Shown one piece after another: positions 6,414 through 24,481 of a stretch of 24,481 nucleotides of DNA; position 1 is the first letter of the stretch, and each line of letters opens with the position of its first letter. The stretch lies in IMG/VR virus record IMGVR_UViG_3300042863_003494, positions 1-24,481 of that record; one strand, written 5' to 3'. The position numbers were made by a program, and so were the translations under genes. The DNA is from a virus. The notes under the pieces are model-generated. The model saw only the letters and a list, made by a program, of their open reading frames with translations. It searched no databases and was not told where the DNA came from.

Positions 6414-7352
6414 TTACAGATTTGTGAAATCTTTGTTCTTAAAATTAGAAATCATTTTATACGCTTGAAGCAACTCTTGAATGCCTGCATCTAAAGAAAA
6501 ATTACAATTCCAGCCAGTACTTTCAAGTTTTTCATTTGAGACTACATAGTTTCTCTTGTCAAAATCTTCTTTGAATTGCTCTTCAATGATTACAAGATTA
6601 GGCACGTATTCTTTGATTTTTTGTGCAAGTTGAAGCTTGGACATATTTGCAGATGTTAGCCCCACATTGAATGCATTATTGTTGCAAGTTTGATAGTTTT
6701 CAATAAGATGAAGAAATGCATTTGCAACATCTCGTACATGAACATAGTTTCTCAAAAAATGTGATTCAAAGAGAACTAAAAACTCGTCTGTAAATGCTCT
6801 GTAAACAAAATCGTTAACAAGCAAATCCATTCTTTGTCGATAAGAAACTCCAAAAACTGTAGCCAAGCGAAGAGAGATACCATTTCCTGAATCCAATACT
6901 GCCTTTTCTGCGTCACATTTTGTTTGAGCATATAAAGAAAGTGGATTGAATGGACTATCTTCATTTATTACTGAATCAGAGCTTCCATATTGTGAATTAG
7001 TATTTGGTACTAGAAGTTTTTGACTTGGCCACATGAAAGCAACAATATCTTTGATTTGCTCATAGTTGACTGCTACTGTTAACTCAGGATCTTTTTTACA
7101 TGCTGGCATTCCTACAATAGCAGCCAAGGGAATAATAATATCGTGAGTCTCTACTAAATCTGATAACAACTGGCTATCTCTGACATCACCGTAAACAAAC
7201 TTAAAATTTTTATTATGGCAAAATGTAGTAAGAGAAAGTTGTTTGTAAATAAGATTATCTAAAACAGTTACAGAGTAGCCTTTAGACAATAAAACTTCAG
7301 ACATTACAGAGCCAAGATATCCAGCTCCACCAGTGATAAGTACTTTGTTCAT
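6414..7352 (-). CDS. NAD-dependent epimerase/dehydratase (extended SDR), first gene of the minus operon
   Basis: A 312-residue extended SDR with an intact active site: GGAGYLG (8-14) for NAD binding, PNTNSQYG (116-123) carrying the serine/threonine position, and Tyr141-x3-Lys145 (YAQTK). RNYVHVRDVANAFLH and FNVGLTSANMSKLQL are typical of UDP-glucose 4-epimerase- and RmlB-like proteins. It is probably a sugar-nucleotide epimerase, dehydratase or reductase; the substrate cannot be assigned. It starts the operon that runs to 598: GGTATAAT lies 11 bases before the ATG on the minus strand, and the next gene follows after 10 bases. Confidence 0.87.
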   Translation of the reverse strand: MNKVLITGGAGYLGSVMSEVLLSKGYSVTVLDNLIYKQLSLTTFCHNKNFKFVYGDVRDSQLLSDLVETHDIIIPLAAIVGMPACKKDPELTVAVNYEQIKDIVAFMWPSQKLLVPNTNSQYGSSDSVINEDSPFNPLSLYAQTKCDAEKAVLDSGNGISLRLATVFGVSYRQRMDLLVNDFVYRAFTDEFLVLFESHFLRNYVHVRDVANAFLHLIENYQTCNNNAFNVGLTSANMSKLQLAQKIKEYVPNLVIIEEQFKEDFDKRNYVVSNEKLESTGWNCNFSLDAGIQELLQAYKMISNFKNKDFTNL

Positions 7353-7363
7353 ATTTTGATCAC

Positions 7364-7371
7364 ATTATACC
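7364..7371 (-). promoter_or_regulatory. GGTATAAT promoter-like element for the 7352-598 operon
   Basis: On the minus strand GGTATAAT lies 11 bases before the ATG at 7352, so a transcript starting about 7 bases downstream would have a leader of only 4-5 bases. No TTGACA-like -35 is evident. The same octamer precedes other transcription-unit starts in the window. Confidence 0.6.
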
Positions 7372-7399
7372 AACGTAATGAACATATTATTTTTTTGAT

Positions 7400-7407
7400 G
7401 GTATAAA
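7400..7407 (+). promoter_or_regulatory. GGTATAAA promoter-like element, leaderless spacing to the 7414 start
   Basis: GGTATAAA is followed by exactly six bases (GTGTTT) and then the ATG at 7414. This is the distance expected if transcription starts at the A of the start codon. It is divergent from the minus-strand element at 7364-7371. It has one mismatch to TATAAT. Confidence 0.6.
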
Positions 7408-7413
7408 GTGTTT

Positions 7414-8202
7414 ATGAACTTGATTGTAAACTATATATGGGGTGACAAGTATACATTTTCATTGCCTCACAAATTGTATTTAGACAGTTTATCAAAAATT
7501 GATTGTTACAAATTGGTCATAGTTTACGACATGAGTGATGAAAATATAGATAGGTTGAAAGAAATTTACAATCATGTCGAAGTTATAGAAAAGCCAGATT
7601 TTCATTACACCTCGTCTTATGTTATTTACAAAACTATAGAAAGATATCAGTCTTTGTGTAAATATGTTTTGTTTACTGATTCTTATGATGTGATTTTTCA
7701 GTCAGATCCTTTTGAATACATTTCTAAGTTTGAAAATGAAATATTTTTAACTTCTCCTGGATTCAAAGTTAACGAGCAATGGCCTGATAGAAACTGGCAA
7801 GAGTATTTCAACAAGTCAGTTGGAGTTTCCTTAGATTTCAATGAAGACAAGGTTCTCAATGGTGGAATCATTGCTGGAAAAATTGATCCTATCCTCAACT
7901 TTTATGCTTTTGTTGCCTCTAACCTCAATAGAAATGGATGCCATATAGTTGATCAGACAGTTTTTTTGTATTTTGCTCAGCTAATGAAAGATCGAGGCAC
8001 AATTAAGATTTTTGATACTCGTTCAGATAATTTTATCTATCATTGCCAAAATGAATACTTTTTTAATAGAGAAGAAAAACCTAACGTCATTGATGGAAAA
8101 ATATACACTCAAGACGGACAACTTTATTGCATATGGCATCAATGGGATGACATTGGATATGAAGCATACTTGGACGATGATGGGCAGGTTTACATAAAAT
8201 GA
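7414..8202 (+). CDS. Glycosyltransferase-like protein, paralogue of the 17271 and 8199 genes
   Basis: A 262-residue protein that I read as a GT-A-like glycosyltransferase, though no named family is certain. Seen: YVLFTDSYDVIFQSDPF (84-100) with Asp89 and Asp92 arranged like a metal-binding DxD-type motif, VLNGGIIAGK in the middle, VDQTVFL, SDNF and a C-terminal WHQWDDIGYEA. All these blocks recur in the same order in the protein encoded at 17271-18080 and, degraded, in the next gene. A GTG at 7408 is in frame, but the ATG at 7414 gives the same N terminus as the paralogue (MNLIVNY versus MNNLLLNF) and fits the promoter spacing. Its stop overlaps the next start as ATGA. A likely task is transfer of a sugar made by the flanking operons. 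Confidence 0.82.
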   Translation: MNLIVNYIWGDKYTFSLPHKLYLDSLSKIDCYKLVIVYDMSDENIDRLKEIYNHVEVIEKPDFHYTSSYVIYKTIERYQSLCKYVLFTDSYDVIFQSDPFEYISKFENEIFLTSPGFKVNEQWPDRNWQEYFNKSVGVSLDFNEDKVLNGGIIAGKIDPILNFYAFVASNLNRNGCHIVDQTVFLYFAQLMKDRGTIKIFDTRSDNFIYHCQNEYFFNREEKPNVIDGKIYTQDGQLYCIWHQWDDIGYEAYLDDDGQVYIK

Positions 8203-8909: not shown

Positions 8910-9311
8910 TCACCAACTAATTTCCCAGTCCTTAAAGTCGGCTGCTAAACAATCAATTTTGTAATCTTTTCTACCACCGACTACTTCTTGAATCTTATTT
9001 TTTGCAGTATTTCTAATTCCATTTAATCCATGAGTAAGTTCAAGATTGTTACCATCTTTGATTCCCTTGCGATAATTGGTTTCATTATGCCAAATATGTA
9101 AATTCATCTGTGACAAAACAACGATTGCTCTTATGACTTCTGCGTCAACTACAGCATTATGTTCATTGATATGTGCTTGAATATCATGAACAATATCTGA
9201 AATTTCATCTGCATATTCTGACTTGTGCTCAGAAATAAAAACTTCTTTAAGTTGGACAATAGATAACCTATCGATTAACTCTGATAAGGTAGGTAGGTAT
9301 TTACGATTCAT
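8910..9311 (-). CDS. Small conserved-looking protein of unknown function (possibly DUF4254-like)
   Basis: A 133-residue, soluble, probably helical protein. Seen: LSELIDRLSIVQLKEVF near the N terminus, HDIQAHINEHNAVVDAE in the middle, and MNLHIWHNETNYRKG followed by LTHGLNGIRNTAKNKI. The second half recalls DUF4254-type proteins from polysaccharide loci (a His/Asn-Trp-Glu-Arg pattern), but I would not assign it firmly. It is a single-gene unit with its own promoter-like element: GGTATAAT six bases before the ATG, facing the plus-strand element of the 9350 operon. The stop abuts the convergent 8199 gene. Its position between two sugar units suggests a supporting role in glycan synthesis; no catalytic motif was recognised. 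Confidence 0.75.
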   Translation of the reverse strand: MNRKYLPTLSELIDRLSIVQLKEVFISEHKSEYADEISDIVHDIQAHINEHNAVVDAEVIRAIVVLSQMNLHIWHNETNYRKGIKDGNNLELTHGLNGIRNTAKNKIQEVVGGRKDYKIDCLAADFKDWEISW

Positions 9312-9317
9312 AATCAG

Positions 9318-9325
9318 ATTATACC
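9318..9325 (-). promoter_or_regulatory. GGTATAAT promoter-like element, leaderless spacing to the 9311 start
   Basis: Read on the minus strand, GGTATAAT is followed by six bases (CTGATT) and the ATG at 9311. It lies back to back with the plus-strand copy at 9336-9343 within a 38-base intergenic region. Confidence 0.65.
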
Positions 9326-9335
9326 AGACATGAAT

Positions 9336-9343
9336 GGTATAAT
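9336..9343 (+). promoter_or_regulatory. GGTATAAT promoter-like element, leaderless spacing to the 9350 start
   Basis: GGTATAAT is followed by six bases (TGTAAT) and the ATG at 9350. No Shine-Dalgarno sequence fits between the element and the start. It drives the six-gene operon to 15684 if functional. Confidence 0.65.
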
Positions 9344-9349
9344 TGTAAT

Positions 9350-10303
9350 ATGAAAATTGTTTATATAACTGGTTGTCTTGGATTTATAGGTAGATATGTA
9401 ACTCAGTTATTGTTAGACGAAGGTTATTATGTTTATGGCATTGATAGTTGCACTTATGCCTCGGAACAAGAAATTTTAGAGAGATGGACATCAAATCCTA
9501 AGTTTAAATTTGAAAAAAGAAACATTTGTGATATTGACAGATTAGTTGATTGTGATTTTTTTATAAATATTGCTGCCGAAACCCATGTAGACAATTCTAT
9601 CAGAGATAGTAGAGTATTTCTAGACTCTAATGTTGTAGGTATTTACAATATTTTAGAACACCTGAAGATTTACAAAAAAGAAGGCTACAATATTCCTAGA
9701 CTAATTCATTTTAGCACTGATGAGGTTTATGGAGATATTTCTTCAGGAGAACACATAGAAACTGATACGTTAAAACCTAGTAATCCTTACTCTGCAACTA
9801 AAGCAGCGGCAGACCAACTTATTATTGCTTGGTCAAGAACTTATAATATTCCATTCAACATTATTCGTCCAACAAATAATTATGGTATTGGGCAGTATGT
9901 TGAAAAGTTAATTCCAAAGTCTTGTAAATTTTTGGGTCTAAGTAGAAAAATACCACTACACAATTATGGCACTCCTATAAGAAACTGGCTACATGCAAAA
10001 GACACAGCATCTGCAGTGCTAAAGATCATTGAATCAGGTGTTCCAAATGAAATTTACAATATTGCTGGTGGTTTTGAGCAATCAAATATAGATACAGTGA
10101 AAAAAGTTATTGATTGCTATTTTGAAAAAGAAATTTCAGACTATGATCAATATATCAACTTTGGTTTGGAACGTCCAGGCCAAGACGTAAGATATGCTTT
10201 GAATGATGATAAAATTCGCAAATTAGGCTGGTCTCCATCTTGTAATTTTGATGAAGAAATAGTGAAAATTGTTGAACATTATAAAGGCAAATTCATATGG
10301 TAG
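9350..10303 (+). CDS. RmlB-like NDP-glucose 4,6-dehydratase (extended SDR)
   Basis: A 317-residue dehydratase of the dTDP-glucose 4,6-dehydratase type, which converts an NDP-hexose to the 4-keto-6-deoxy form. Seen: ITGCLGFIG (6-14) for NAD binding, AAETHVDNSI (75-84), FSTDEVYGD (121-129) with the Thr-Asp-Glu catalytic triplet at 123-125, Tyr147-x3-Lys151 in NPYSATKAAADQL, and RPTNNYGIGQY. These are all hallmarks of RmlB. The C terminus (GLERPGQDVRYALN, then LGWSP) is also family-typical. It is first in the plus operon, under a GGTATAAT element. The next gene starts inside its last codons (10297), so translation is coupled. It probably feeds 4-ketosugar to the TPP and aldolase enzymes behind it; CDP, GDP or dTDP specificity is not readable. 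Confidence 0.9.
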   Translation: MKIVYITGCLGFIGRYVTQLLLDEGYYVYGIDSCTYASEQEILERWTSNPKFKFEKRNICDIDRLVDCDFFINIAAETHVDNSIRDSRVFLDSNVVGIYNILEHLKIYKKEGYNIPRLIHFSTDEVYGDISSGEHIETDTLKPSNPYSATKAAADQLIIAWSRTYNIPFNIIRPTNNYGIGQYVEKLIPKSCKFLGLSRKIPLHNYGTPIRNWLHAKDTASAVLKIIESGVPNEIYNIAGGFEQSNIDTVKKVIDCYFEKEISDYDQYINFGLERPGQDVRYALNDDKIRKLGWSPSCNFDEEIVKIVEHYKGKFIW

Positions 10304-15703: not shown

Positions 15704-15710
15704 GTATAAT
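15704..15710 (+). promoter_or_regulatory. GTATAAT promoter-like element, leaderless spacing to the 15717 start
   Basis: GTATAAT is followed by six bases (AATTTT) and the ATG at 15717. It lies in the 32-base gap after the 14902 gene, and no -35 box is evident upstream. Confidence 0.62.
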
Positions 15711-15716
15711 AATTTT

Positions 15717-16373
15717 ATGTCCAGATTTGATACAGATTTAATTTTTAAGATAGATGATAAATGGTTTTGGCGTAAAGACGACCATAATCTCAAGACATTT
15801 AATGGATTGTCAAGTGAAACAGACTTACTAGAGGTTGTAAAGCCTTATCTAAAAGGAAACAGAGTTGTAATCCAAGCAGGCGGAAACTGTGGGATGCAAG
15901 TTGTAAAGTTTGCCGATCATTTTGAAATGGTTTACACGTTTGAACCCGATCCAGTAAACTTTCACTGCTTGGTAAATAATCTTCCATACAATAATGTAAT
16001 CAAATTTCAATGTTGCTTGGGAGATGACCACAGAATGGTATCTATGACAACACTTCCAAATGAAATTGGTGGTTTCTATGTCAACCCGAATTACGGAACA
16101 ACACCAACATTAAGGATAGATGACTTAGCATTGAGCCATTGCGATTTCATTCAATTAGATGTTGAGGGATATCAACTATTTGCTTTGATGGGTGCTGTAA
16201 ATACAATCAAAAAATTCAAACCTGTCATTAGTGTTGAATTTGACTGGGCATTTAGATACAACGTAAATGTTGGTGATATTAAGTCTTTTATGGCAAACTT
16301 GGGTTACGAAAAAGTAGAAACTTACACTACTGATCACATTTACACATATCAAAATCTTTCTTTTAGTTTATGA
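15717..16373 (+). CDS. FkbM-family methyltransferase
   Basis: A 218-residue SAM-dependent methyltransferase of the FkbM type. Seen: VVIQAGGNCGMQVVKF (50-65), the glycine-rich SAM loop, VYTFEPDPVNFHCL (72-85) with the acidic residue that binds the SAM ribose, TLRIDDL, and CDFIQLDVEGYQLFALMGA, matching the family's (I/L)KxDVEGxE segment. Family members methylate hydroxyl groups of sugars or secondary metabolites and occur often in O-antigen loci and aquatic phage genomes. The start is fixed by a GTATAAT element six bases upstream. Its stop overlaps the next SDR start (ATGA), so the two probably act on the same sugar. The acceptor is unknown. Confidence 0.9.
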   Translation: MSRFDTDLIFKIDDKWFWRKDDHNLKTFNGLSSETDLLEVVKPYLKGNRVVIQAGGNCGMQVVKFADHFEMVYTFEPDPVNFHCLVNNLPYNNVIKFQCCLGDDHRMVSMTTLPNEIGGFYVNPNYGTTPTLRIDDLALSHCDFIQLDVEGYQLFALMGAVNTIKKFKPVISVEFDWAFRYNVNVGDIKSFMANLGYEKVETYTTDHIYTYQNLSFSL

Positions 16374-17263
16374 ACATCTTAGTTACTGGTGCAAATGGTT
16401 TTTTAGGCTCAAATATATGTAATTTGCTGTCAAAAAATCATAACATTTATGCTGCCTCTAGAACATTTACTAAATTATCAAAACATAATATAGTCTGCAT
16501 TCGTTCTGAAATGTCAGACTATATTACTTTAAACGAAACTATTAAAGATAATAAAATAGATACAGTTATTCATTGTGCTTGGATGGGAGGAAATTCATCT
16601 AAGGATACTAATGAATTGTGGCAAACAGAAAATATAAGCTACAGTACTATTCTATTAGAAGCTTGCGCAAAACACAAAATTAAACATTTTATTGGTTTTG
16701 GTTCATCTGCAGAATACGGAAATCAAAATACTAAATTCAATGAAGACACAACGTGTTCTCCAACTACAATGTACGGAGTTAGCAAAAATTGTTTTAAAAT
16801 GATTTCTGAAAATTATTGCAAATCTAATAATATTTTGCATAGTTGGATAAGGCCAGTATATACTTATGGCCCAAATGATGTAGAGACTAGACTGATACCA
16901 AAAGTAATTTTGTCATTACTCAAAAATCAAAATTTGACATTGAATAAATGTTCTGCTGTAGTAGATTACTTGTATGTTGAAGATTTTGCCAAAGCAGTAA
17001 AAATTATTGTCGAAGAAAAACTTCAAGGCAACTACACTGTTTGTTCAGATGGAGAAATCGATATAAGAAACGTAGTTACATCTATATACAATAAAATAAA
17101 TCCTTCTTGCGTACTTAACTTTGATGATGAAATTGAAGAAATAGGCCCTAAGTATGTTTGTGGTACATCTCAAAAATTAAGGTCAGTAAGTAACTGGTTT
17201 CCTGAAATAGATTTTGAACAAGGTTTAGAACAAACTATTTCTTATTTTAAAAAGTTCGTATAA
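16370..17263 (+). CDS. Extended SDR, RmlD/GDP-fucose-synthase-like sugar reductase/epimerase
   Basis: A 297-residue extended SDR with an intact active site. Seen: VTGANGFLGS (5-14), DTVIHCAWMGGNSS (64-77), FGSSAEYGN (110-118) and Tyr135-x3-Lys139 (YGVSK), then IRPVYTYGPND and VDYLYVEDFAKAV. The CAWMGG block resembles CAIIGG of the 14902 protein. It probably reduces or epimerises a ketosugar nucleotide. The coding sequence ends at TAA in TTCGTATAATGA: the stop lies inside the promoter-like element of the next gene, followed in frame by a second stop (TGA). Confidence 0.87.
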   Translation: MNILVTGANGFLGSNICNLLSKNHNIYAASRTFTKLSKHNIVCIRSEMSDYITLNETIKDNKIDTVIHCAWMGGNSSKDTNELWQTENISYSTILLEACAKHKIKHFIGFGSSAEYGNQNTKFNEDTTCSPTTMYGVSKNCFKMISENYCKSNNILHSWIRPVYTYGPNDVETRLIPKVILSLLKNQNLTLNKCSAVVDYLYVEDFAKAVKIIVEEKLQGNYTVCSDGEIDIRNVVTSIYNKINPSCVLNFDDEIEEIGPKYVCGTSQKLRSVSNWFPEIDFEQGLEQTISYFKKFV

Positions 17264-17264
17264 T
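17258..17264 (+). promoter_or_regulatory. GTATAAT promoter-like element overlapping a stop codon, leaderless spacing to the 17271 start
   Basis: GTATAAT is followed by six bases (GAGATT) and the ATG at 17271. The TAA of the element is the stop codon of the upstream SDR. No ribosome binding site is visible in the 7-base gap. Confidence 0.6.
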
Positions 17265-17270
17265 GAGATT

Positions 17271-18080
17271 ATGAATAATCTGTTGCTTAATTTTTTACAA
17301 GGTGGTCGAATTCTAGAATCTTTAGATGCTGAAATTTATCTTTCATCTTTATCCAAGCTCAAAACATTTAAAAAACTTGTTTGTGTTTTTGATGTTCCAG
17401 CAGAACAGATCGAAAAACTTAAAAAATATTACGATTATGTAATCCCGGTTAATTCTGGACTTGTTCCTGTAAACTTTTGTTACTTAGCATACTTCAATTG
17501 GCTGTGTGAACATGGAAAGGACTTTGACTATGTAATGCACTGCGATATGCGTGATGTTGTTATTCAAAGAGACCCATTTCATTTTATGGAATCACATCCA
17601 GATAAAGAACTATTTTTAGTTTGCGAAGGTATGAAGATTGAGGAAAATGATTGCAATCAGATGTGGCATGATTGGGTTCTTAATACAATAGTTTATAATA
17701 AAGAAAAGTATAGTGATTCATATGTTTTAAATGGTGGAACATATGGAGGGAAAACAAACGCTTTCTTGAATTATTGTACTCTCATTCTTACTGCTATGAA
17801 TAGGAAGTACAACTATATTATTCCTGACCAGGCAATGTTAGGTTACTTGTATAGGCAACTTAATCAAAACCCAAATGTAATGCTTACACATCCTATGTCT
17901 GATAACTTTTGCGCTACAGGAGAGGCAATTAAGAGAGATAATGTAACTGTTACTTTTGACGGTAAAAATGTCTGCACTGTAAACAATGAACCATTCTATC
18001 TATTTCATCAATGGGATAGAACTATTTATGCAGACACTTTGAGACAAAAACAAGCGAATACTTTATCTTTTTCTATTTAG
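17271..18080 (+). CDS. Glycosyltransferase-like protein, paralogue of the 7414 gene
   Basis: A 269-residue protein sharing block order with the 7414 product: MNNLLLNFLQGG at the N terminus, YVMHCDMRDVVIQRDPFHFM (87-106) with Asp92 and Asp95 in a metal-binding-like arrangement, VLNGGTYGGKTNAFLNY, IPDQAMLGYLY, HPMSDNFC and a C-terminal YLFHQWDRTIYADTL. No named family is certain, but the DxxD site, NGG loop and terminal HQWD suggest a GT-A-fold transferase. It is a single-gene unit with its own promoter-like element, and its stop overlaps the stop of the convergent structural operon by two bases. Its position at the junction between sugar and virion genes leaves open whether it acts on the host surface or on virion proteins. 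Confidence 0.82.
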   Translation: MNNLLLNFLQGGRILESLDAEIYLSSLSKLKTFKKLVCVFDVPAEQIEKLKKYYDYVIPVNSGLVPVNFCYLAYFNWLCEHGKDFDYVMHCDMRDVVIQRDPFHFMESHPDKELFLVCEGMKIEENDCNQMWHDWVLNTIVYNKEKYSDSYVLNGGTYGGKTNAFLNYCTLILTAMNRKYNYIIPDQAMLGYLYRQLNQNPNVMLTHPMSDNFCATGEAIKRDNVTVTFDGKNVCTVNNEPFYLFHQWDRTIYADTLRQKQANTLSFSI

Positions 18081-21842: not shown

Positions 21843-24296
21843 TTACGGCACAGTTTCCACTGTAATTAAGTCATAAATATCCCAAATTATTGGACCATTG
21901 CTTTCTCTGTTTAAGTTTGTCCCAGGAACCACATAAACATCTAGCACTCTATCAAATAAATCGACTTCTGTTCCCAAAATAAATCTAGTATTTCTTGTTG
22001 TTCCTTGAGGTACAGTTGCACTTAAAGTCTTGACTTCACCGAATGAGCCGTTTCTTGCTGTTACATATACTACAAGATCATTTTTGATAGTTGTATCTGT
22101 AGTTGTAGCAATGCCTGTAGCAGAACCATTAAGTCTTATGGCAGATGTTGATAAGTCGTCTACTTGAGGAACATAAACTGATAATCTTCTTGGCTCAAAT
22201 GAGATTCTGTTTGTAAGTGATATGCCTTTTCTTACAACTTCTCCTATGATGTTTCCATTATCTAAGTAACCTCTTGCTTCAAACCAAAGCGTTCCACCAG
22301 TGCCTGTCCAAGAAACTGCATTGTCTATTGAAGTTTTTGCAACTCCTGTGATTCCGCTTGTAGTTCTTGTAAACAAAGATGTTGTGCCTAAGGCTGTCGC
22401 AAAAGATTCTGGCTTATTTATCATTACATAATAAAAAGAATCTTCGACAACATTTACTCCAGTGTCAAACTTGACAGTGTATGTATTTGTGCCTTGTGCT
22501 ATGTCGCTATATCTTAAGTATGCTTGGCTACTCAAGATACCATTATAAGTAGGTGTAGAACCTGTTGCTGAAAATATTGAGAGTGCTAGTCCTGTGTTTC
22601 CTGTGCCTGAAGTCTGACCACCAGCATCATATAGTAACTTTAAGCTCACTCCACCAATATATGCATCTTCTTTAGCTTGGAAAAGAAATGCATTGAATCC
22701 ATTTACTAAAGATAAACTTGTATTGTCTGTGTATGATGGAATAGTATTGTAAGGTGGATATTGTATTTCGTCAATATTGGTTATTTTTCTTTCGTAAAGT
22801 TCGTCTGTAAGTCTAGGCTTTTTATAAATATTATAGAAAAGCACGTTTGATATTGCAGTCCCTGTCCAATTCAATTCAACAAAATAATTATTGCTTGTTG
22901 TATTTGAAGAAATTAGATTGGTATAGGTATTTGTTGACTCAACATACTCAGAACCAGTAATATTGTATACGGTAGAAACTCCATAAATCTGAGTTCCGCT
23001 ATGTAATGAAGACAAATAGTTTGAACAAGAATATGTAGCGGCTGTCAATCCTACAGCACTAAAACTTGATGTATTACCAACTGCCGAATTATATGTATTC
23101 AAGTCTCCTCTGAAAATAGCAAAAGTGTGTTGTAAATCTTGACCTGTTGTGTTGTAATATGCTTTTGCAAAATTATATGGAAACTCAAATCTTTCTAAGC
23201 CGCTAAAACTTAAACCCTTAGAATAATACTCATTAGGTCTGAATGGTTGAGTTGATAGTAATTCTCTAACAGTAAGCCCACTAATATTTGCAGTGTAAGT
23301 TATATAGTTAAATATGCCATTCATAAGTACACTCAGATACTCATTAGACTTATAACTTTGCAATAAACTCAATGTGTCGTTACAGCTTTGAATAATTAAG
23401 TTTTGATCTGCCGAAGTGCCTAAAATAGGATCGCTTGAAGTGGCTGTTGGCATATCAATTGCAGTTCTTGTGAAACCTGTTCCTGAAGAAATGACAACTG
23501 GGTTTTCAGGATTTTTGCACAAAACTTTTGCAATAGGTAACCAACTTTGTGGTAATGGTGGAAAATACTTAAAACCTGTAATATATTCCAACGCTTCTTC
23601 AACAGGAAATCCAGTTATGTATTTAAGTTTTGGTTGAAATATGAATGTGACTGTAGAATTTACATATACAGCATTAGGAAGAGTGCCAAACGAACTTCCA
23701 TTATAATACGCAGGATCAATAGTTAGTGCTGTTCTGTCATCATTGATACCAGAAAATGTTATGACAGAATTTCCTACTACTCCCTGTATTGGAAAGCCTA
23801 AATTTTCTGCTACATTTACATCATTTACATAAAGTATTGAAGTACCAGCAGCACAGTTTTGAGTCACTGTTGTAAAAAATAATTGCTTTGCTTTTTGTAC
23901 TTCTTCTAATGGTAATCCAATAGTAATCCCATACTTATAGCCATCTGAGCCAACAAAAGTATCAGAGTAATCTTTTGACCATTCTTTTCTTAATGGTATT
24001 TTTTGTGTTGTTGTTTGAAGCAAACTGCCATCATAAGCAACTTGCCCACCATTTATTGTTAAATAATATGGGTCACTACTCAAGCTGTACGTAAGTCCGA
24101 AACCTAAGGGATTTGTTTCCACAACTCCAAAAAATGGATATCCATTGTTTGCCAAATTCAACAGATTATTAATTTCAAAAATTGATGAGTTTGGCTGATT
24201 GAAATCTCCAAGTCCTAAACTTAAGGCATCATATATATTACCAGCAGTTTTTGATAACTCTAAGATAATTTCTTCTATTTTTGATGATATTGCCAT
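21843..24296 (-). CDS. Large putative phage tail/baseplate protein with FN3-like region
   Basis: An 817-residue virion-like protein. The N terminus is helical (KIEEIILELSKTAGNIYDAL), followed by long Ser/Thr/Gly/Asn-rich beta regions. Seen: a beta insert at about 148-205 beginning AAGTSILYVNDV, and a fibronectin-III-like stretch at about 435-525 with YFVELNWTGTAISNVLFYNI and YKKPRLTDELYERKITN. The C-terminal third has repeated beta strands with turns rich in Gly and Thr, as in adhesin or receptor-binding modules. No lysozyme or protease motif is seen. It could be a baseplate, tail spike or tail fibre-attachment protein. The start ATG follows the upstream stop by one base (TAAaATG), and GGTATAAT lies 8 bases before it inside the upstream coding sequence. 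Confidence 0.82.
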   Translation of the reverse strand: MAISSKIEEIILELSKTAGNIYDALSLGLGDFNQPNSSIFEINNLLNLANNGYPFFGVVETNPLGFGLTYSLSSDPYYLTINGGQVAYDGSLLQTTTQKIPLRKEWSKDYSDTFVGSDGYKYGITIGLPLEEVQKAKQLFFTTVTQNCAAGTSILYVNDVNVAENLGFPIQGVVGNSVITFSGINDDRTALTIDPAYYNGSSFGTLPNAVYVNSTVTFIFQPKLKYITGFPVEEALEYITGFKYFPPLPQSWLPIAKVLCKNPENPVVISSGTGFTRTAIDMPTATSSDPILGTSADQNLIIQSCNDTLSLLQSYKSNEYLSVLMNGIFNYITYTANISGLTVRELLSTQPFRPNEYYSKGLSFSGLERFEFPYNFAKAYYNTTGQDLQHTFAIFRGDLNTYNSAVGNTSSFSAVGLTAATYSCSNYLSSLHSGTQIYGVSTVYNITGSEYVESTNTYTNLISSNTTSNNYFVELNWTGTAISNVLFYNIYKKPRLTDELYERKITNIDEIQYPPYNTIPSYTDNTSLSLVNGFNAFLFQAKEDAYIGGVSLKLLYDAGGQTSGTGNTGLALSIFSATGSTPTYNGILSSQAYLRYSDIAQGTNTYTVKFDTGVNVVEDSFYYVMINKPESFATALGTTSLFTRTTSGITGVAKTSIDNAVSWTGTGGTLWFEARGYLDNGNIIGEVVRKGISLTNRISFEPRRLSVYVPQVDDLSTSAIRLNGSATGIATTTDTTIKNDLVVYVTARNGSFGEVKTLSATVPQGTTRNTRFILGTEVDLFDRVLDVYVVPGTNLNRESNGPIIWDIYDLITVETVP

Positions 24297-24297
24297 T

Positions 24298-24481
24298 TTA
24301 AATAATTATACCCAACTCATTTTGGATGTATGTTTCAAGTGCTTCTGGTAAACCCTCTTCAGATACTGACCAAAATGTCCTGAAGTCTGGATCCCAACCG
24401 GAATTGCCAACCCAGTTTGAAATAATAGATTTGACCAAACTATTTTGATTATTATATATTTCTAGAATTTGTTCATAATTT
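24298..24481 (-). CDS. C-terminal fragment of an upstream structural-operon gene, cut by window edge
   Basis: Only the last 60 residues are in the window, read on the minus strand from the right edge to a TAA at 24300-24298. Seen: EQILEIYNNQNSLVKS, NWVGNSGWDPDF, RTFWSVSEEGLPEAL and the end YIQNELGIII. It has no stop in frame across the window, ends one base before the 817-residue gene, and continues the same operon. It is too short to name; a tail or baseplate component is likely from position. Confidence 0.7.
   Translation of the reverse strand, partial: NYEQILEIYNNQNSLVKSIISNWVGNSGWDPDFRTFWSVSEEGLPEALETYIQNELGIII
24305..24312 (-). promoter_or_regulatory. GGTATAAT promoter-like element within the 3' end of the upstream gene
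   Basis: Read on the minus strand, GGTATAAT lies 8 bases before the ATG at 24296 and encodes part of the upstream gene's C terminus (Leu-Gly-Ile-Ile). It matches the shared octamer but departs from the six-base spacing, so it may be a true promoter with a 1-2 base leader or coincidence. Confidence 0.4.

Follow-up and report, generated by a model that had tools for sequence, protein, structure and literature searches.

Within the window, the 24,481-base stretch of a virus record that we analysed as a fragment of an uncultivated phage, a 38-base gap separates two divergent genes, p133 and p317 (Table 1). The octamer GGTATAAT occurs on each strand of this gap six bases before the ATG of the gene that it faces, with 10 bases between the two octamers, and this layout, given in a preliminary description of the DNA, proved exact. 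The same description stated that the gap has no room for leaders, which was equally borne out: only six bases separate each hexamer from its ATG, leaving no space on either side for a Shine-Dalgarno site in a leader. Since a T precedes both octamers, each reads TGGTATAAT, a full extended -10 element (TGnTATAAT).

Table 1. Features of the 38-base gap, its flanking genes and comparable sites in the window.
Feature	Position	Strand	Remarks
GGTATAAT	7364..7371	-	11 bases before the ATG at 7352; in the 7353-7413 gap
GGTATAAA	7400..7407	+	six bases before the ATG at 7414; partner of the 7364..7371 element
p133, 133 aa	8910..9311	-	predicted helical bundle; 480 related stretches in viral contigs
Intergenic gap	9312-9349		38 bases between p133 (-) and p317 (+); large uncultivated phage
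Six-base discriminator	9312..9317	-	predicted +1 at the A of the ATG at 9311, from spacing
GGTATAAT, predicted extended -10 of a leaderless-type promoter, 133-aa gene	9318..9325	-	read 9325-9318, then six bases, then the ATG at 9311; kept in 6/6 gaps
10-base spacer separating the octamers	9326..9335	.	unconserved in relatives; no -35 or operator seen
GGTATAAT, predicted extended -10 of a leaderless-type promoter, 317-aa gene	9336..9343	+	then six bases, then the ATG at 9350; GTATAAT in 6/6 gaps, GG in 2/6
Six-base discriminator	9344..9349	+	predicted +1 at the A of the ATG at 9350, from spacing
p317, 317-aa NAD-dependent nucleotide-sugar dehydratase/epimerase	9350..10303	+	
TATAAT	15705..15710	+	six bases before the ATG at 15717, FkbM-type methyltransferase gene
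TATAAT	17259..17264	+	six bases before the ATG at 17271
TATAAT (inside GGTATAAT)	24305..24310	-	eight bases before the ATG at 24296

The start codons of both flanking genes look right, as matches to p133 begin at residue 1-3 in the best 80 of its 480 viral loci and the nucleotide-sugar domain of p317 begins at residue 4-6. For p317, the nearest NCBIfam model was dTDP-glucose 4,6-dehydratase, which scored below its cut-off. Relatives of p133 were found in 480 viral stretches and 26 genome-contig loci, with a mean column identity of 85% over 43 sequences; identification by sequence failed, as searches of Pfam, PHROGs, NCBIfam, named phages and PDB gave no match. Using the predicted fold, nothing was recovered at E 0.001 in PDB or among viral models, and the best viral matches (E 0.004 and 0.005, probability 1.00, TM 0.64 and 0.61) were parts of a giant-virus glycosyltransferase and of a GNAT-family protein. 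As a lead from these models, p133 may be an accessory domain of a glycan enzyme. Furthermore, the epimerase gene p312 begins directly after the apparent last codons of p133 in four related contigs (G003, G007, G008, and G011), which ties p133 to the nucleotide-sugar pathway of p317. Many window genes matched sugar-nucleotide or glycan families, namely, epimerases, dehydratases, a DegT-type aminotransferase, a dTDP-sugar isomerase, a PfkB kinase, and the FkbM methyltransferase; genes for thiamine-diphosphate and HMGL-like enzymes lie alongside. Of the 27 window proteins scanned, 9, p133 included, had no Pfam match at E 0.001. The gene pair is also present in G005, a 358-kb contig encoding a DnaE-like polymerase, Hsp70/DnaK, DnaJ, and a portal protein whose nearest named phage is Bacillus phage G (27.8% identity over 54% of the length), a gene content pointing to an uncultivated large phage group.

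The elements in the gap stand without an upstream partner. A scan of the gap for sigma-70 promoters with a -35/-10 pair found no site, and no TTGACA-like hexamer, the classical mark of such promoters, lay 16-18 bp upstream of either -10. For the same pair in G005, the best -35 scores were 3 and 4 of 6, the commonest background score being 3. No conserved operator was seen by eye in the spacer of the six gap sequences compared.

These six gaps came from a comparison of 240 viral loci (L029-L108 and L162-L321), several of which cover the same record. Hits to both p133 and p317 were found in 44 of the 240 loci, and the p317 hit reached at least 40% identity in 38 of these. Among these 38 rows, p133 and p317 were adjacent and divergent in 19, representing nine records besides the window; 8 rows, from five records (L033, L035, L038, L047, and L173), carried a gene of about 1 kb between the two, and in the other 11 the two genes shared a strand and lay 1-5 kb from each other. 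Merging near-identical sequences reduced the 10 records with adjacent genes to the gaps of the window (identical to L029 and L030), L031, L034, L036, L039 (identical to L040), and L072; the L032 gap equals that of L031 but for one base. In all six, GGTATAAT precedes p133 and GTATAAT precedes p317, while gap length ranges from 37 to 41 bases and the spacer and discriminators drift. In L031 the element on the p133 side, and in L039 that on the p317 side, stands seven bases from its ATG instead of six. The G immediately upstream of TATAAT is kept in all six gaps; TGn directly before TATAAT is present on both sides in the window and L036 and absent from the other four gaps. The preliminary description had held that loss of one octamer in close relatives would speak against its reading, and neither was lost in the nine other records with adjacent genes. 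It had also proposed checking the conservation of both octamers together with their spacing: the elements are indeed kept, but the spacing is not fixed, varying by 4 bp.

Rearranged loci displayed variations on the same theme. In L047, another gene adjoins p133, and TATAAT-N6-ATG is found on both sides if an internal in-frame ATG of the partner is used; in L173, the six bases are kept for p133 and nine are found for its partner, again counted to an internal ATG. More distant relatives (L033, L035, L037, and L038) have TATAAT 22-24 bases before the p133 ATG, which leaves a short leader and may reflect a natural transition between leaderless and led forms. Shine-Dalgarno-like bases were noticed by eye in some of these leaders. 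Across the best 80 of the 480 viral p133 loci, TATAAT lies 6-7 bases before the ATG in 10, suggesting that the promoter belongs to the phage group and not to the gene. This low count, the distances of 22-24 bases and the nine bases in L173 weigh against the leaderless reading.

The spacing seen in the gap is shared by many other genes of this group. We called open reading frames (ORFs) with our own simple caller (ATG only, at least 70 codons) in five related contigs, G002, G003, G005, G007, and G008. In 36 of the 732 ORFs, TATAAT started exactly 12 bases upstream of the ATG; these 36 are not independent, because orthologous genes recur among the five contigs. The mean at other offsets (-11, -13, and -14 left aside) was 1.36, and 3 of 15,384 internal ATGs had the hexamer at this distance. 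G005 alone contributed 19 of 375 ORFs. A G preceded TATAAT at 12 of 25 sites located 6-7 bases before an ORF of at least 40 codons, versus 64 of 634 TATAATs throughout G005. Two G005 sites, at 153,997 and 155,950, resemble main-sigma promoters, with a full TTGACA, 16 bases and TGaTATAAT, and most sites, including the gap pair, have a -35 score at about background. Shine-Dalgarno-like motifs before other genes of this contig peak at -11 and -12. Transcription usually initiates seven bases after the -10 hexamer, which would place +1 on the A of the ATG and makes leaderless promoters the best reading. Each gene of the pair has one mark of leaderless (TA-led) genes, a -10-like element at a fixed short distance before the start codon, and the earlier assignment to leaderless-type promoters is well supported at the sequence level by the fixed spacing in related contigs and by conservation in 6/6 gaps. 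We therefore hold with good confidence that the gap is probably a minimal divergent control region in which two leaderless -10 promoters lacking -35 elements, drawn from the ordinary promoter set of the phage, stand back to back.

Paired elements were also found elsewhere. In the window, long divergent genes also flank a second gap (7353-7413), which carries GGTATAAT paired with GGTATAAA, and its equivalent in G002 reads GGTATAAT-N8-ATG and GGTATAAA-N6-ATG. Scanning viral contigs for ATTATAC-N8-16-GTATAAT-N6-ATG returned at least 120 stretches, with 80 loci among the matches listed, 17 of which had a mirror-image match. At the 67 distinct sites among the matches listed, a CAT lay exactly six bases to the left in 14, against 0-6 sites for each other distance from 0 to 39; 4 of these 14 are the p133/p317 pair, and some of the remaining ones resemble one another. 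Paired TATAAT-N6-ATG without p133 or p317 was observed in L249, L259, L283, L309, L276, L320, L251, and L260, where some pairs adjoin short frames, possibly repressor/Cro-like switch regions. In L253, the frames on either side of the pair are 7 and 11 codons long, and this pair may be due to chance. Recurrence of the paired design in other viral contigs suggests that it may be a general space-saving solution. Single elements were likewise noted before the Hsp70/DnaK and DnaJ genes at L124:8567-10261 and L124:13392-14372, with TATAAT 8 or 6 bases before the start codon. By eye, a terminator-like stem with a T-run followed by TATAAT and the next ATG was seen at G005 positions 197426 (L118:17426-18235) and 116269 (L114:16269-16976), where a terminator and a leaderless promoter appear to be packed together.

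Several other explanations of the gap were considered. Chance matches to an AT-rich consensus might be anticipated in a genome of 32% G+C, the value for the window, and TATAAT alone is no commoner there than expected (42 found versus 40.7 after shuffling). However, GGTATAAT-N4-8-ATG was found three times in the window, two of them in the 38-base gap, against a mean of 0.09 in 100 shuffles, none of which reached three. This positional enrichment near ATG codons, that of TATAAT at -12 in the related contigs and the conservation in relatives contradict a chance origin, which we rejected as extremely improbable. The overlap could otherwise be a true either-or switch, in which polymerase exclusion is used for regulation. 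The predicted starts at 9311 and 9350 lie 39 bp apart, a distance that falls within one polymerase footprint, and the close packing is kept in every one of the six gaps; simultaneous occupancy of the gap by two polymerases, which the preliminary description had ruled out, is plausibly excluded on steric grounds as judged from this layout. In contrast, the spacing is variable and the spacer unconserved, which argues against a dedicated switch, and another gene separates p133 from p317 in the five records listed above. Moreover, among the 32 divergent gaps of at most 150 bases in G005, TATAAT was found 4-9 bases from both starts in one and on one side in eight, where 0.8 paired gaps would be expected if the two sides were independent. 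Pairing in G005 is thus at the independent expectation and needs no special explanation there, and the idea that pairing is a rule of the phage was not borne out. We consider a true switch very unlikely. The suggestion that the two units are mutually exclusive was not supported, given the 4-bp variation in spacing, the single element type, the lack of a conserved operator in the gaps and the pairing frequency in G005, and mutual exclusivity as a mode of regulation is unlikely; its companion, that the units are regulated together, likely holds in the weak sense that both belong to one promoter class. Two independent -10-only promoters of one class are the most likely reading. In such an arrangement, bacterial RNA polymerase would melt one -10 or the other in the gap and each promoter would direct initiation to the A of its ATG; both mRNAs would then be leaderless and be translated as such. 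The two promoters are probably active during the same phase and would provide p133 and the genes beginning with p317, and the overlap of polymerase sites, which may cause competition when either promoter is very active, would be mainly a by-product of compaction rather than a dedicated switch.

The reader of the elements could also differ from the main sigma factor of the host. A multisubunit RNA polymerase encoded by the phage was discarded as a candidate, as beta' matched in 0 of 12 records, mostly fragments, while the control matched in 14 of 14. Sigma region 4 was matched in 5 of the 12 records, above the cut-off in 4, and G005 carries two small sigma factors. The gene for one of them, of 188 aa (G005 64302-64868, L112:4302-4868), is preceded by GTATAAT-N6-ATG in both G005 and G002 and by TATAAC-N6-ATG in G008. 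Three named-phage records matched this protein, and the two top matches were sigma factors of Bacillus phages, at 27% identity. The elements might accordingly form a dedicated G-TATAAT class without -35, read by the 188-aa sigma of the phage and not by the host main sigma. Such a class would include the sigma gene itself, and it would stand apart from the host-like TTGACA-N16-TGaTATAAT promoters of G005; the recurrence of region 4 among the records also favours it. Yet TATAAT is likewise the consensus of the bacterial main sigma and is common to both classes, and the intact region 4 of the 188-aa protein normally reads a -35 element, of which none was seen. Region 2, the would-be reader of the -10, gave only a weak Pfam match (E 0.095, below the cut-off), and TATAAT is absent from the 60 bases that precede the other sigma gene of G005. 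On balance, reading by the phage sigma is somewhat unlikely, although the GTATAAT before its gene suggests, from sequence, a possible phage-sigma regulon. A fuller version, in which the phage group would have a dedicated -10-only leaderless regulon with its own small, self-activating sigma, and in which paired sites would be the shortest workable divergent control region with polymerase choice setting the output ratio, appears doubtful.

Taken together, these results indicate that positional information alone is enough to recognize a leaderless promoter grammar in an uncultivated phage. The gap offers a compact and conserved setting in which to ask how closely two divergent promoters can be placed before interference between polymerases sets in, and the occurrence of the element before the sigma gene of the phage itself suggests a regulon that can be tested.

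Extended -10 sigma-70 promoters carry TGnTATAAT, and both window sites conform to this as TGGTATAAT in the absence of a -35 element, but TG is kept in only one of the five other gaps, whereas the single G is kept in all. The phage sigma gp55 of T4 reads -10-only late promoters with the element TATAAATA; the gap resembles these in its -10-only sites and in the presence of a phage-encoded sigma, and differs in its GTATAAT element and in a sigma that has region 4. Leaderless (TA-led) bacterial genes are described by Zheng et al. (2011, PMC3160421) as having a TA-like signal roughly 10 bp ahead of the start codon. The gap shares with those genes a TA-like signal near the start codon and no Shine-Dalgarno leader, but here the setting is a divergent pair within 38 bases of an uncultivated large phage that, unlike the genes described there, also has many genes with Shine-Dalgarno-like signals. 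Phage transcripts are described as often leaderless, with leaders of 26-491 nt in jumbo phage AR9 (PMC5312081), and the present genes would likewise lack leaders; AR9 relies on multisubunit polymerases that it encodes itself and on a late motif unrelated to the present element, whereas no beta' gene was found here in 12 records. Bidirectional promoters of E. coli and Salmonella are described as having starts 7-25 bp apart around one shared -10 (PMC10268837), and five such promoters of E. coli are summarized as competing only on strong activation, with no competition at basal activity (PMC12825309). The gap resembles them in divergent transcription from very short DNA with an expected polymerase clash (PMC10268837, PMC12825309). 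It has, however, a -10 element of its own on each strand, with predicted starts 39 bp apart at 9311 and 9350, so that a shared-element bidirectional promoter, as defined in that outline (PMC10268837), was rejected. Titles and abstract openings of openly licensed PMC papers yielded no description of paired back-to-back leaderless phage promoters. The paired elements of this phage are real and conserved, yet made of known parts.
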